Part shown: one piece after another, positions 1 through 35,274 of the stretch | Position numbering within the stretch: position 1 is the stretch's first letter | How the letters are laid out: each line of letters opens with the position of its first letter | NCBI GenBank assembly: GCA_002724675.1 | Contig: PBPL01000075.1 | Location: 1-49,223 of the forward strand | DNA length: 49,223 nucleotides | Direction: 5' to 3' | DNA from: Deltaproteobacteria bacterium | Lineage (GTDB): Bacteria; Myxococcota_A; UBA796; UBA9615 | The notes under the pieces: model-generated | What the model saw: only the letters and a program-made list of their open reading frames with translations | Databases searched by the model: none | What the model was told of the DNA's origin: nothing | Translations under genes and position numbers: made by a program

Positions 1-1
1 C

Positions 2-430
2 GGAGACGATGACGACGACGACACCGGAGACGATGACGACACCGGAGACGATGACGACACCGGAGACGATGACGACGACGACACCGGAGACGATGACGAC
101 GACGACACCGGAGACGATGACGACGACTCCACGGACGATGACGACGACACCGGGGACGACGATGACGACGACACCGGGGACGACGACTCCGGGGACGACG
201 ACGACTCCGGGGACGACGATGACGACGACACGGGGGACGACGACGACTCCGGGGACGACGATGACGACGACACCGGGGACGATGACTCCGGGGACGACGA
301 CGATGACTCCGGGGACGACGACGATGACTCCGGCGACGACGACGATGACTCCGGCGACGACGACGATGACGACGACACCGCAGACGACGACACCGCAGAC
401 GACGATGACTCCGGGGACGACGACGATGAC
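2..430 (+). repeat. Imperfect GAC/GAT-rich tandem repeat encoding GD(4-6)T/S units
   Basis: Direct reading: gga gac gat gac gac (gac gac) acc / ggg gac gac gac gac tcc units, in frame throughout. Confidence 0.9.
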
Positions 431-586
431 AGCAGCGATGAAGGCGTTGAGCTACCGGCCGGCTGCGGATGTACAGCATCACTGCAAGGCAAGCGCGTTA
501 CACAGGGTGTATTGGAGCTAGCACTAGGAGTGCTCATCATGCTGGCCATCCGACGACGACAGCGTCACCCGATGACGGCGGCTTGA
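2..586 (+). CDS. 3' part of an Asp-rich surface protein with a MYXO-CTERM-like C-terminal sorting signal (5' truncated by window edge)
   Basis: Frame 2 is open from base 2 to TGA 584-586: (G-D4-6-T/S)n ... DDDDDSSDEGVELPAGCGCTASLQGKRVTQGVLELALGVLIMLAIRRRQRHPMTAA*. Cys motif + hydrophobic helix + Arg cluster. The ORF-track entry 9..521 is a different frame. Confidence 0.8.
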   Translation, partial: GDDDDDDTGDDDDTGDDDDTGDDDDDDTGDDDDDDTGDDDDDSTDDDDDTGDDDDDDTGDDDSGDDDDSGDDDDDDTGDDDDSGDDDDDDTGDDDSGDDDDDSGDDDDDSGDDDDDSGDDDDDDDTADDDTADDDDSGDDDDDSSDEGVELPAGCGCTASLQGKRVTQGVLELALGVLIMLAIRRRQRHPMTAA

Positions 587-717: not shown

Positions 718-2343
718 CTACCGGGTAAACCAGAAGAACTCCGCAGAGTTGTCGCCGTTTGGCGCGACTGATGTGAAGTCAATCTTGTATCCGCTGACTG
801 GCAGCCCACCCCAGGTGGACGGGAACCAGGTTGCTGTGTCCAACACCAGCGGAAGGTCGAACCCCGGAAGACATGGACTGCTATCGGAGACACGGGGGCT
901 GATGTCGGCGACCGTGTTCATCTGCTGCCCAAGCGAATCCAGATAGAAGACATGGGCCTGGAAGTCCATGCCACAGACCTCCACACCACCTGCCTGCACT
1001 AGAGGACGATCGGCATAGAGGGTCACTGCCGTAGCCGAAGGATCAATCGTGATCGGATTGGACGACGTACCCGGATCACCCGATGTCATCGGATACGTAG
1101 GTGCAGTCGCCGTCACTCCGTCGGTGATGGTGTGAACCTTTGGTGCCGTGTTGAACACGTATGCGAGCCGCGTCGTGAAGGTAGCAATGGTTCCGGTCAC
1201 CAGCTCGACCTCGAACTGGAACAGCGCGGGGGCGGGATCGGTGGTCGTGTCTACCCACACGGTGAACACATTGTCACCGTCCGGGTCGATGGCGTGATGT
1301 AGGCGATGCGCATCACCAGACCAGGCTGAGCCCGCAGGCGGTGTCGGGGCGGTGAAGGAGAAGCCTCCGGCATAAGGTGCAATGCGCCCGTCGGCAAAGA
1401 GAGGATGCATCGGCACCCGGACATCGACGATGTTGGGAACCAGCGTCCCAGGCACGGTCAGTTCATAGGTAATGATGTGACTGTCCGTATGGGGCAAGAG
1501 GTCGCCGTCACCATCCAACAACTGAGTGCTATTCAGCTTCAGGTTGTCAAAGACGACACAGTCCGATTCCTGAAGGTCACCGATCCCCGTGTTGCTCGTC
1601 CCAAGCTCATACGTCAGAAGGCACGGGGCAAAGCCCTCAATGGCATCGTAAATGCCATTGGCGTTGGAGTCGTTGTCCAGGAAATTGGGGACACCGTCCC
1701 CATCCGAGTCGCCCCGGGCGGGCAGACCGGCCAGATCGACACCGTTATCGCCGTCCTCGGACTCTTCCATCACGATGCTGACGAGATCGATCAGGTCCGG
1801 CAACTTGGCGCTGGAGGCTCCCTGGAGCGCATTCTCCGCGGTAGCTAGCTGGGTCGAGCGGTCCAACTCCAGTCGGCCGAGGTCCAGCACCTCATCCAGA
1901 TCTGAGTGGAGGGGCAGCGACGTTCCACCGCTCACAACGAGCCCCATGGGGGTGTTGTTGGCATCGAGAATAGCGAGCGCATAGTCGCCAGCCTCGAGCT
2001 CGAGATCCACCTGACCCAACGGAGCTTCAGCAAGAAGCGCCGAGTTATCAGCCAGATTGAGCGCGAGGACTCGGATGCCAAGGGCGGGATCCCCAGGCAA
2101 GTCAGAGATCGCCTTTGCCAACGACTCTGGCGTGACATCGACCACCGAACCCGTGACTCGGACAGACATCTGAGACTGACCCGTGACCTCGGCGTCCTCG
2201 CCAAGCTCTGTAGGCGGCAGTGGAGAACAACCAGCGAACAACATAAAGGTGCTAAGCCCAGCAATGGAGCCAGCAGTCACAACCTTGCGGTGCAGCCTTC
2301 GTGGAAGAGGGATGAGTTGAGGTAGGAAGTGCTTGACGGACAT
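718..2343 (-). CDS. Lipoprotein with a calcium-binding (thrombospondin type 3-like) segment
   Basis: From ATG 2343: MSVKHFLPQLIPLPRRLHRKVVTAGSIAGLSTFMLFAGCSPLPPTE (lipobox FAGC); contains DSDGDGVPNFLDNDSNANGIYD. SD GGAG at 2350-2353. The longer ORF start at 2652 runs through the riboswitch. Confidence 0.8.
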   Translation of the reverse strand: MSVKHFLPQLIPLPRRLHRKVVTAGSIAGLSTFMLFAGCSPLPPTELGEDAEVTGQSQMSVRVTGSVVDVTPESLAKAISDLPGDPALGIRVLALNLADNSALLAEAPLGQVDLELEAGDYALAILDANNTPMGLVVSGGTSLPLHSDLDEVLDLGRLELDRSTQLATAENALQGASSAKLPDLIDLVSIVMEESEDGDNGVDLAGLPARGDSDGDGVPNFLDNDSNANGIYDAIEGFAPCLLTYELGTSNTGIGDLQESDCVVFDNLKLNSTQLLDGDGDLLPHTDSHIITYELTVPGTLVPNIVDVRVPMHPLFADGRIAPYAGGFSFTAPTPPAGSAWSGDAHRLHHAIDPDGDNVFTVWVDTTTDPAPALFQFEVELVTGTIATFTTRLAYVFNTAPKVHTITDGVTATAPTYPMTSGDPGTSSNPITIDPSATAVTLYADRPLVQAGGVEVCGMDFQAHVFYLDSLGQQMNTVADISPRVSDSSPCLPGFDLPLVLDTATWFPSTWGGLPVSGYKIDFTSVAPNGDNSAEFFWFTR

Positions 2344-2345
2344 GG

Positions 2346-2435
2346 CTCTCTCCTTCGGTAGCCCGGCTACCTGCATCAGCAGGCCCGTGGCTTTGCGTCC
2401 CGACGTCGCCGCCGGTTTGCCGTTTCGGGAGGAAA
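2346..2435 (-). promoter_or_regulatory. c-di-GMP-I (GEMM-I class) riboswitch aptamer
   Basis: Reverse complement: TTTCCTCCCGAAACGGCAAACCGGCGGCGACGTCGGGACGCAAAGCCACGGGCCTGCTGATGCAGGTAGCCGGGCTACCGAAGGAGAGAG. It has the conserved GGCAAACC, a helix capped by a GCGA (GNRA) tetraloop, GGACGCAAAGCCACGGGCC, a CCTGC-TGAT-GCAGG hairpin and AGCCGGGCTACCG. Confidence 0.92.
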
Positions 2436-2641
2436 CTACTTCCGCCCTTGCACTCAACGTGGGTCGCCCGTTCCATTTGTCAAGAAATTGCGCGTGTAAG
2501 CCTTGAACCTGGTGCGGCCCAGCCAGCGCAAGACTGCCCACTGGCATCTCCCAAGATTGCCTCTCGCACATCGAGACAACATCAAGTAGGGTCCGAGCCG
2601 CACGAAGGAAGAGCGCGCCTTCGATGCCGCATGAGGAGGCC

Positions 2642-4390
2642 ATGGCGCCCAACGAACCTCACGACCTCGTCATCCTCGGAGGCGGACTGGCCGGGCTGTG
2701 CCTTGCGCGACAGTTGAGCCTTGCGCGGCCAGAGACCAAGATCCTTGTCGCTGAGGGAGGAAAGCGACCTGCCCCGCAAGCAGCCTTCAAGATCGGGGAG
2801 TCCAGCGTAGAGGTCGCGGGTCACTACCTGCACAACGTGTTGGGGCTAGCCGACTATCTGAACGAGCACCAGCTTCCAAAGCTGGGCCTGCGCTACTTCA
2901 TGAGCCAGGGCGACAACTCGGACATCACGCGGCGTCTGGAGATGGGCCCCATCCGCAACAAGGTTCAGGTGCCATTCAACGGACTGCTGCTTCCCAGCTA
3001 TCAATTGGACCGCGGAACACTCGAGAATCACCTCATCGAACTGCTCGAGACCGACCACCCCAATGTGACCTTCCAACAACAGTGCCGAGTTGCGGACATC
3101 GCCTTCGGCCCAGGGGAAGCCACTCATCAAGTCACACTCCGAACCAAAGAAGAGAACGGCGAGAGAGTTGAAGAGACGCTGCAGACACGTTGGGTGATCG
3201 ACGCTGCTGGCAGAGGCTCGTTCCTCAAGAAGAAGCTGGGCAATGAGATCCCCAACGACCACCACTGCAATGGGGTGTGGTTCCGTCTGAGAACCCGCAT
3301 CCAGGTCGACAACTGGAGCGAGGACCAGAGCTTCCAAGACCGCGTCAATGAACGAGCCCGCTGGCGCAGCACCGTGCACCTCATGGGGCACGGCTACTGG
3401 CTCTGGATCATCCCGCTCAGCGGTGGGGAGACGAGCATCGGAGTGGTCGCTGATGAGCGCGTTCACCCCTACCGAAGCCTCGCCAGTTGGACGAAGATTC
3501 GGGCCTGGCTCAAGGCACACGAGCCTCAACTGTCCGAGAAGGTAGAGGCCGCGGCCGATCAAAAGCTGGACTTCGCGGCAACGGCCGACTTCACCTTGAA
3601 TTGCACCTCGGTAACCGGTGGCGACGACCGGTGGGGAATGACCGGCGATGCCGGGCTCTTCACAGACCCGCTCTATTCCCCCGGTACCGACTTCATCTGC
3701 ATTGTGAACACGATGCAGACAGACCTCATCACCCGCGAGCTGGACGGAGAGTCCATCGGCACCCGCGCCGAGCGGTCCAATTACTACCTGAAGCTGCTGT
3801 ACGACCAGTTCATGCAGGTCTACCGCGACGGCTATCTCGTCATGGGCAACCCGCGTGTGAACACGGTCAAGGTGGTCTTCGACAATGGCTTCTACTGGGG
3901 CTGGGTCGCCCTGATGGGCATGAACGGGCGCGCCACAGATCCAGACGTCCTCGACCCTTTCCACGAGGTCTACATGCGCTCCATTCGAGTCATGGTGGGA
4001 TTCCAGCGCTTCATTCGAGAATGGAACGAAGCAGAGCCTCGCCAGGAGCTTCCCTTCGACCACATCGACCAGTTCGACATCCGTATGCTCTGGAATATCT
4101 ACACAGTCCTCATCCGACCGGTCGACGGCGAGTCGCTTCGGAAGCGCCTCACCAAGAACCTCGAGCGTCTAGAGGCTTACTGTGAGCACGTCTTCCGGCA
4201 GTTGTTTCAGGGAGACCCAGAGGTTGAGGCCGCCGTGGGTCTTGATGTCACGAAGCTGACCTTGGACCGAACCAAGTGGGCCGAGTGGGGCACGCTGGAA
4301 GGCCCCGACCGCCATCAACTGGTCGGGCAGATCGCCGCGGGGATGGCACCGCTGTGGAGTGGCTCCAGCCGAGAGGCTTCTGCGGCCTGA
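2642..4390 (+). CDS. FAD-dependent oxidoreductase, flavin-dependent halogenase (Trp_halogenase) family
   Basis: N-terminal LVILGGGLAGLCLARQ dinucleotide fold, FKIGESSVE, WLWIIPL (WxWxIP signature). Start MAPNEPH preceded by GAGGAGG. Confidence 0.8.
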   Translation: MAPNEPHDLVILGGGLAGLCLARQLSLARPETKILVAEGGKRPAPQAAFKIGESSVEVAGHYLHNVLGLADYLNEHQLPKLGLRYFMSQGDNSDITRRLEMGPIRNKVQVPFNGLLLPSYQLDRGTLENHLIELLETDHPNVTFQQQCRVADIAFGPGEATHQVTLRTKEENGERVEETLQTRWVIDAAGRGSFLKKKLGNEIPNDHHCNGVWFRLRTRIQVDNWSEDQSFQDRVNERARWRSTVHLMGHGYWLWIIPLSGGETSIGVVADERVHPYRSLASWTKIRAWLKAHEPQLSEKVEAAADQKLDFAATADFTLNCTSVTGGDDRWGMTGDAGLFTDPLYSPGTDFICIVNTMQTDLITRELDGESIGTRAERSNYYLKLLYDQFMQVYRDGYLVMGNPRVNTVKVVFDNGFYWGWVALMGMNGRATDPDVLDPFHEVYMRSIRVMVGFQRFIREWNEAEPRQELPFDHIDQFDIRMLWNIYTVLIRPVDGESLRKRLTKNLERLEAYCEHVFRQLFQGDPEVEAAVGLDVTKLTLDRTKWAEWGTLEGPDRHQLVGQIAAGMAPLWSGSSREASAA

Positions 4391-4575: not shown

Positions 4576-6003
4576 ATGGCCCACTATCGGCTCACAGTCA
4601 TCGCTCTACTCGCCCTCACCCTGCTCGCCACCGCATGCTCTCAGGACGAAGAGCTTCCTGCTGACGACTACCCGAGTGTCCGTGGACCAGACGCAGCCGA
4701 GGACCTCGATCCGACTCTTGCCGTAGCGGAGTACGAGTTGGTCGTGGATGAGGCTGAGGTAGCGTTGTTCGAGGACACGGCTCCGGTTGCCATGTATGCC
4801 TACAACGGCCAGGTACCAGGGCCAGTGCTCCACGCCCGCGTGGGAGAGACCGTCCGAGTCCACGTCACCAACAACCTCAGCATGCCCACATCGGTGCACT
4901 GGTATGGAATGCGTGTGCCCTTTGAGATGGACGGAGTCAACATCAACGGTGTCTACGCCATTGGCCCAGGGCAGACCTTCACATACGAGTTTGTCGCCCG
5001 GGACGCCGGAACCTTCTGGTATCGCCCCCACGTACAGGCCAACGTTCAGGTCGAGGCCGGCCTCTATGGTGGGTTCATCGTCCACGAAGCAGACGAGATC
5101 CGACCCGACGTCGACGCGGACCGGCTTGTCATTCTCGACGACCTCCTGCTGGACTCGGACGAGAGCCTCGCGGCCCACGACATGGAACATCACACCCGGA
5201 TGCATGGGCGCACCGGCAATGCCCTCATCGCCAACGGCGCCGAACGAGCGCCGCGAGTCCACATGGCACCCGGAGAGGTGCAGCGCTGGCGACTCGTCAA
5301 CGCGGCCAATGCTCGTCCCTTTGATCTCGTATTTCCCGGCCTCGAAGTCCGCCAGATCGGCCGGGATGGTTGCCTCTGGAAGCAGGACTGGACCCGAGAC
5401 ATCGAGACTCTCTTCTTGCCCATGGGGGCCCGAGCTGATCTCGAGGTCCGGCTGGCGGAAGACACGACTGATGGTGAATTGGCAGCCATCGTCCTGACGC
5501 AAGGTTCCTTCGGGCCCGTCGAGACTGAGATTGAGTTGGTGCCCGTCCGATTGGATGAGGATGCCGAACCCAGCAGTGCCGCTGGTCACACCTCAGATCC
5601 CACCTATGAGCTTCCCAGCGCGGACGCCACCAGTGACATCGATCACACGGCTCACTTCGGGGTCGGGTTTAACGACGCAGACCAGGCGCAGTGGATGATC
5701 GATCAAAAGACCTGGCCCGAGTACACAGAGTGGGAAGTGGCTGTTGGGGACGAACAGGTCATCGAGCTGGTCAACGACGTTGGCTTCGAATACCCGCTCC
5801 ACTTCCATGGCACGCGCTTCAAGGTGTTGTCACGGAACAACCAAGCCGTCGACGAGCCTGGCCTGAGAGACACGGTGTGGCTGGAGGGCGACAGCTCTGT
5901 AGTCATCGCCGCGACCTACGACGCACCAGGCTCATGGGTGTACCAGAGCTCCCTGCTCGAGTACTCCATCCTCGGAATGATGGGCGTCGTCGAAGTCCGC
6001 TGA
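4576..6003 (+). CDS. Multicopper oxidase-fold lipoprotein with degenerate copper sites
   Basis: Lipobox LLATACS; cupredoxin blocks YNGQVPGPVLHARVGETVRVHVTNNL, VHWYGM, FWYRPH, YPLHFHG, GSWVYQSSLLEYSILGMMG. SD GGGAGG. Confidence 0.85.
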   Translation: MAHYRLTVIALLALTLLATACSQDEELPADDYPSVRGPDAAEDLDPTLAVAEYELVVDEAEVALFEDTAPVAMYAYNGQVPGPVLHARVGETVRVHVTNNLSMPTSVHWYGMRVPFEMDGVNINGVYAIGPGQTFTYEFVARDAGTFWYRPHVQANVQVEAGLYGGFIVHEADEIRPDVDADRLVILDDLLLDSDESLAAHDMEHHTRMHGRTGNALIANGAERAPRVHMAPGEVQRWRLVNAANARPFDLVFPGLEVRQIGRDGCLWKQDWTRDIETLFLPMGARADLEVRLAEDTTDGELAAIVLTQGSFGPVETEIELVPVRLDEDAEPSSAAGHTSDPTYELPSADATSDIDHTAHFGVGFNDADQAQWMIDQKTWPEYTEWEVAVGDEQVIELVNDVGFEYPLHFHGTRFKVLSRNNQAVDEPGLRDTVWLEGDSSVVIAATYDAPGSWVYQSSLLEYSILGMMGVVEVR

Positions 6004-34889: not shown

Positions 34890-35274
34890 GGGGGCGACAT
34901 GGTTTCGACGGGGTTGTAGTAGGTCTTTGCCGCGTGCCGAGCACTTCAGTTAACTCGTTAAACTTCCTGGAATTCAATTTAATTGCCAACGATAGCAATT
35001 ACGCGCTCGCCGCTTAGTCGGTGAGGGCACTCGCCTCATAGAAAGGCGAGTCGTCCGCCCCTCCTTGTTCGTGAGAGGGAATCGGGCGTCTTGAAGCGAA
35101 CTGGCCAACTCCCAGAGCACATCCGGGGAGAAGGTGAGATACAGGGATGAGCTGGTCGATTGGGATCCTGCCCCTGGGAGCCCGTGAGACGAGACTTAAA
35201 CCAGCGGGCTACGCGCGTAGAAGGTAGAGGGTGAGCAGCTTCGGACGCGGGTTCGATTCCCGCCGCCTCCACCA
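34890..35274 (+). ncRNA. ssrA: Transfer-messenger RNA (tmRNA)
   Basis: 5' GGGGGCGACATGGTTTCGACGGGG pairs with 3' CGCCTCC-ACCA; T-arm GGACGCGGGTTCGATTCCCG; tag ORF GCC AAC GAT AGC AAT TAC GCG CTC GCC GCT TAG (34985-35017) = ANDSNYALAA*. Confidence 0.97.

Follow-up and report, generated by a model that had tools for sequence, protein, structure and literature searches.

A c-di-GMP class I riboswitch with the Shine-Dalgarno sequence in its P1 helix and a predicted translational OFF switch with a proposed competing 5' hairpin

The leader of a lipoprotein gene in a Deltaproteobacteria bacterium (GTDB phylum Myxococcota_A) contains a c-di-GMP class I (c-di-GMP-I) aptamer whose P1 helix includes the Shine-Dalgarno (SD) sequence of the gene. 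Because the SD lies within P1, we predict that the leader acts as a translational OFF switch through exchange of the anti-SD strand between a 5' hairpin and P1. We give this reading a probability of about 0.6; ligand binding, the direction of control and the exchange in the cell are predicted parts of it. Table 1 lists the features concerned, where the window is the whole stretch of DNA that was analysed (contig PBPL01000075.1, 49,223 nucleotides).

Table 1. Features of the riboswitch leader and its gene, in window coordinates
Feature	Position	Strand	Basis
Promoter-like -35 TTGACA (2483-2478), 17-nt spacer, -10-like ACGTTG (2460-2455)	2455..2483	-	arrangement repeated in relatives
Proposed competitor hairpin GGGCGGAA-guagu-UUCCUCCC	2427..2447	-	MFE -9.4 kcal/mol, z -2.1; arm covariation; same hairpin in relatives
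P1 5' strand CUCCCG, contains anti-SD	2426..2431	-	sequence; complementarity to SD strands over 55 loci above controls
c-di-GMP-I aptamer (P1 core, P2 capped by a GCGA tetraloop, P3)	2353..2430	-	RF03167 66.8 bits, RF01051 69.0 bits
Ligand-contact residues	G20=2421, A47=2394, C92=2358	-	placed by 27-nt spacing, position 20 to 47
P1 3' strand CGAAGGAG, in which the aptamer end merges with SD GGAG (2350-2353)	2350..2357	-	sequence; layout identical in 7/7 genome copies
Start codon (ATG) of the lipoprotein gene; GGAG lies 6 nt before it	2341..2343	-	sequence; ortholog L019
Lipoprotein, 541 aa, lipobox LFAGC, one TSP3-like Asp-rich motif	718..2343	-	ORF list

Relatives of the leader were recruited with the RF03167 model, which matches in 69 of the 379 phylum genomes sampled, and more came from a class-level search; this sample leaves out some weaker matches. 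The resulting 103 phylum loci were read base by base. A locus is called SD-coupled on the basis of an automatic SD-plus-start rule combined with inspection: the rule selects 52/103 loci, and after inspection the number is 55/103.

Aptamer family and ligand pocket

The Rfam scan of the whole window (cmscan) contains a single riboswitch, a match to RF03167 (c-di-GMP-I-GGC) at 2353-2430 on the minus strand; its score of 66.8 bits exceeds the gathering score of 59, and its E-value is 1e-13. A genome-wide search with RF01051, the check named by the original prediction, hits this position too, scoring 69.0 bits where the cut-off is 35 (E=3.6e-13); the alignment spans the full length of the model (1-87) and lies 34 bits over the cut-off. 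The sequence blocks quoted in that prediction are all present on the minus strand of the leader, and the alignment to the Rfam model contains the P1-P2-P3 junction with a GNRA-capped P2 (GCGA loop).

The ligand pocket can be located from published contacts, which are positions 20 and 47 in Vc2 (G20, A47, C92), 12 and 39 in Vc1, and 11 and 38 in Bc1, always with 27 nt between the first two; this spacing holds in 96 of the 103 loci. Since the window has G20, A47 and C92, its pocket is the ordinary c-di-GMP one. Thus, the two covariance model scores and the three contacts bear out the proposal of a c-di-GMP-I aptamer. The GEMM-Ib class, which senses cGAMP, has A20 instead of G20. This A20 is absent from the window, where position 20 is a G (2421), as the original prediction had stated in preferring c-di-GMP to cGAMP.

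By E-value, the best Rfam family is RF03167, and the window passes its gathering score; moreover, the 3' consensus of this family (...CcgaaG) runs into the SD here. We nevertheless set the GGC label aside because the window lacks G47. We take 'GGC' in the family name to stand for G20/G47/C92, and the consensus has a G at position 47 (GCGAAgCc), whereas the window has A47. Indeed, the window and the six other strong copies in the genome read CGCAAA or CGCAAT, not CGCGAA, at the position-47 core.

The rank of RF03167 is one of two points in favour of a leader that does not switch, its P1/SD helix being stable with and without ligand, or that responds to a ligand other than c-di-GMP, such as that of the GGC variant family. 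The other point is that in one folding window the SD is 99% paired without ligand. We consider such a leader improbable, since position 47 is A rather than the G of the RF03167 consensus, G20 and C92 are present, the RF01051 score is 34 bits above its cut-off, and the full aptamer core is kept in orthologs and paralogs. We conclude that the leader is a c-di-GMP-I riboswitch by family membership, every defining feature that can be tested being present, and as such it would be predicted to bind c-di-GMP.

The Shine-Dalgarno helix and the upstream hairpin

In P1, the strand C2431 U2430 C2429 C2428 C2427 G2426 pairs with C2357 G2356 and G2353 G2352 A2351 G2350, where G2353-G2350 is the SD, and A2355 and A2354 are bulged. 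GGAG (2353-2350) therefore lies inside P1, 6 nt ahead of the ATG (2343-2341), as had been claimed from the sequence. The longer pairing of TTTCCTCC with GGAGAGAG that had been proposed (2428-2435 with 2346-2353) also exists, with one C.A mismatch (C2432.A2349), beyond which outer pairs between 2433-2435 and 2346-2348 are possible. The ortholog L019 in G006, a genome of another genus (72% identity over 483 aa), supports the start codon of the window: this locus shares the riboswitch and the spacing, and a TAA in frame precedes its own ATG by two codons.

Among the SD-coupled relatives, the complementarity between the P1 5' strand and the SD strand averages -6.84 kcal/mol, compared with -2.8 to -3.7 kcal/mol for other upstream segments and -5.48 +/- 0.25 kcal/mol for composition-matched shuffles. 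This excess over the controls and the location of the SD inside P1 sustain, as a prediction, the translational OFF switch that had been proposed. Covariation within P1 was dropped as a proof of this helix: a permutation test on the SD-coupled set gives none (z=-0.7), since there is almost no variation in the SD strand. In the loci without SD coupling, P1 covariation is strong (z=-7.0), and the sequence of P1 is therefore otherwise free.

The original prediction saw almost no separate expression platform in this leader. This part does not hold: a conserved upstream hairpin (2427-2447), whose arms covary across loci, is predicted to compete for the anti-SD strand. The 3' arm of this hairpin (2427-2434) shares sequence with the 5' strand of P1, and most SD-coupled members have such a hairpin directly 5' of the aptamer, with the anti-SD strand contained in its 3' arm. 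Pair counting on a MAFFT alignment, which is unaware of structure, was discarded because the registers of the hairpin differ by one base between loci; for the same reason we used a permutation test, in which hairpin arms are swapped between loci and the pairing energies of own and swapped arms are compared over 5000 permutations. Own arms pair with -8.72 kcal/mol and swapped arms with -7.07 kcal/mol (z=-5.2, 0/5000 permutations as good), and the result for a non-redundant set is similar (z=-4.4, 0/5000). A control segment 22 nt further upstream has no arm covariation (z=-0.3), and the hairpin covariation is weaker in loci without SD coupling (z=-2.3).

When the test is confined to the shared anti-SD nucleotides, the signal drops to z=-1.8 (184/5000), which is weak, and in the close relatives alone it is not significant (z=-0.5). 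Since the signal on the shared strand is weak, competition between the hairpin and P1 is supported mainly by their overlap and the predicted pairing. Another possibility is that P1 alone toggles through stabilisation by the ligand, while the hairpin is a mere 5' stabiliser or insulator stacking on P1. This is consistent with several observations: the loop-proximal part of the hairpin shares just 1-2 nt with P1, the covariation is clearest in the part that is not shared (z=-3.4), and some SD-coupled loci (L017, L041, L090, L097 and L112) have no good upstream hairpin. However, the predicted hairpin reaches into the anti-SD strand in 20 of the 23 close relatives, where two or all three of its nucleotides C1-C3 are paired; furthermore, where this strand has changed from C to U (L002, L003, L021, L050 and L052), the upstream partner is an A and the SD G is unchanged. 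We therefore regard a P1 that acts alone as unlikely, though it is the strongest of the alternatives, and prefer the exchange between hairpin and P1.

Two further features of the hairpin region were noted. The hairpin loop is repeatedly UGG closed by an A-U pair in different genomes (L001, L026, L051, L053, L093 and L096). A short ORF in the loop of L001 (AUG GUU CCC UCC CGA UAA) was rejected as a candidate element, its frame and stop being inconsistent in other loci.

A sigma-70 consensus scan of the window leader returned no site. By reading, a promoter-like TTGACA with a 17-nt spacer occurs upstream of the hairpin, and the same arrangement at the same distance is found in L004, L005, L006, L016 and L019, with one-mismatch versions in L001 and L002; in the copies of G000 and G006, the TTGACA, the spacer and the -10-like hexamer keep a constant distance. 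Judged from this sequence pattern, transcription from the predicted promoter would begin at about 2448, next to the hairpin.

The proposed switch would then operate as follows. The mRNA would begin with the hairpin, whose 3' arm holds the anti-SD strand. Without c-di-GMP, the hairpin would occupy this strand, the SD would be free and the lipoprotein would be made. Binding of c-di-GMP to the P2/P3 core would stabilise P1; CUCCCG would leave the hairpin and pair with the P1 3' strand, the SD would be buried, and translation would be turned off. At least in their shared part, the hairpin and P1 are mutually exclusive, since both use the same strand. The genome encodes 15 GGDEF domains.

The energies of the folding calculations leave out the tertiary contact and the ligand. 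When the window leader is folded from near its predicted 5' end, the probability that the SD is open without ligand is 0.54, and P1 lies 3.3 kcal/mol above the SD-open ensemble, a gap that ligand binding could pay for. With a longer leader, ViennaRNA predicts the SD to be 99% paired without ligand; the prediction for the ligand-free state is therefore not robust and varies with the assumed transcript ends. For roughly one SD-coupled locus in three, the calculation favours P1 even when ligand is absent.

The direction or level of control might also differ from the proposed translational OFF switch, in that c-di-GMP exposes the SD, or that control acts on transcription or RNA stability. Other c-di-GMP-I members of the phylum look terminator-coupled (e.g., L037, L039 and L045), and Bc1 is a known case of dual control (PMC11218506). 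On the other hand, no terminator-like site was found when one was looked for around the window leader, and the SD lies within P1, a helix that is stabilised by ligand in relatives (PMC9262584). We thus hold an ON switch, or control other than translational, to be very improbable, the least probable of the readings considered.

Lipoprotein genes and variation across the phylum

The genome contains seven strong c-di-GMP-I aptamers. Each has an aptamer end, ACCGAAG or GCCGAAG, that leads straight into GGAG, with the start codon exactly 9 nt past the end of the aptamer model; because all seven share it, this arrangement of SD and start is not due to chance. The products of the genes behind the seven copies are lipoprotein-like precursors, and Asp-rich tracts are present in most of them. 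An eighth, degenerate copy (L008:201-274 (-), on G000:C202) scores 30 bits and has the core GGGACACGGUCAACGG instead of GGGACGCAAAGCCACGG. It keeps the SD/start layout, and its changed P1 can still pair (C3-G77, U4-A76); this copy has either decayed or changed its ligand. Its gene, which runs off the contig, encodes a secreted FDDEDES-repeat protein. The riboswitch of the window is thus not a single one: it is part of a lipoprotein regulon of seven or eight members.

The original prediction had taken the product of the window gene for a surface lipoprotein with a Ca-binding motif and had suggested a link between c-di-GMP and surface adhesion. The Ca-binding and adhesion parts of this proposal are not supported: a search of the 541-aa lipoprotein against Pfam (E <= 0.01) gave no match, and just a TSP3-like stretch, DSDGDGVPNFLDND, is visible. 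The divergent neighbours encode an FAD-dependent oxidoreductase with a weak tryptophan-halogenase-like match (2624-4390 (+)) and a multicopper oxidase lipoprotein (4576-6003 (+)). Elsewhere in the window, an ORF of Asp-rich repeats of the GDDDD type (1-586 (+)) ends in a tail with Cys-Gly-Cys, hydrophobic and Arg-rich parts, which resembles a MYXO-CTERM sorting tag; MYXO-CTERM has 11 matches elsewhere in the genome, which suggests Myxococcota. A tmRNA gene is located at 34890-35274 (+) (RF00023, 178.6 bits).

Across the phylum, the start codon is 7-13 nt past the aptamer in 51 of 54 SD-coupled loci, and by pattern a lipobox-like motif occurs in 31 of 54 SD-coupled products. A more general proposal is that the phylum has a common design, in which the whole platform is wrapped round the aptamer, a 5'-terminal hairpin, often with an SD-like GGAG/GGG arm of its own, competes for the anti-SD strand with the P1 that is also the SD helix, and one genome has placed this single module on a regulon of seven or eight lipoprotein genes; we would give even odds on this wider proposal.

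Several SD-coupled aptamers differ at the contact positions. A20 is found, within GAGCAAACC or AAGCAAACC, in other genomes of the phylum (L067, L069, L079, L084, L090, L096 and L099), and at these loci cGAMP may use the same SD-coupled platform. U92 replaces C in L072, L076, L082, L086, L088 and L106 (G20/A47/U92), and the ligand specificity of these aptamers may likewise differ. Three of the U92 loci precede proteins that start with ...CFVGRQP(I/L)(L/V)DR..., which resemble EAL/HDOD (YuxH-like) proteins.

The remaining loci, which are not SD-coupled, include terminator-like platforms. In one subgroup (L037, L039, L042, L044, L045, L056 and L057), characterised by gatTCAGACAAAGGCAAAG...GGACCGCCGGAA..., the aptamer is followed by a hairpin that is able to pair with the aptamer GGACCG, and some of these loci have a T run, i.e., a terminator-type platform. 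Tandem c-di-GMP-I copies about 150-270 bp apart, with no obvious start codon after them, occur in G369:C986, G451:C1001 and G475:C360.

Relation to known riboswitches and significance

Vc2 of Vibrio cholerae (RF01051, GEMM-I) is an OFF switch at the level of translation and relies on P1 as its switching element (PMC9262584), and the window resembles it in aptamer architecture, in the G20/A47/C92 contacts and in the proposed P1-based mode of control. In Vc2, however, the aptamer and the ribosome site that is masked lie far apart, according to the title of Inuzuka 2018 (cited in PMC9262584), whereas here the SD is a P1 strand and the proposed competitor is a hairpin on the 5' side of the aptamer. 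The cGAMP-sensing GEMM-Ib riboswitch of Geobacter pilM shares the aptamer scaffold, and by NMR its P1 forms only with ligand (PMC9262584); it was studied as a transcriptional switch, and the window differs from it in having G20. A mechanistic parallel, with another ligand, fold and family, is the SMK box (SAM-III), where the SD is paired in a ligand-stabilised aptamer helix and an ON-state helix, P0, must break first (PMC6152003); the 5' hairpin would take the place of P0 here.

How translational c-di-GMP-I riboswitches mask the ribosome binding site has so far been unclear, since this site is distant in Vc2 and published work on Vc1 describes no visible anti-SD. Here, the masking can be read from the sequence and is repeated at dozens of loci, although the original GEMM papers may mention an SD in P1 in passing; therefore, the exchange of P1/SD against a 5' competitor is directly testable on a leader of about 110 nt. 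The analysis also defines a c-di-GMP lipoprotein regulon in a poorly known group of bacteria, and the variants with A20 or U92 that occur naturally on this platform offer material for tests of ligand specificity.
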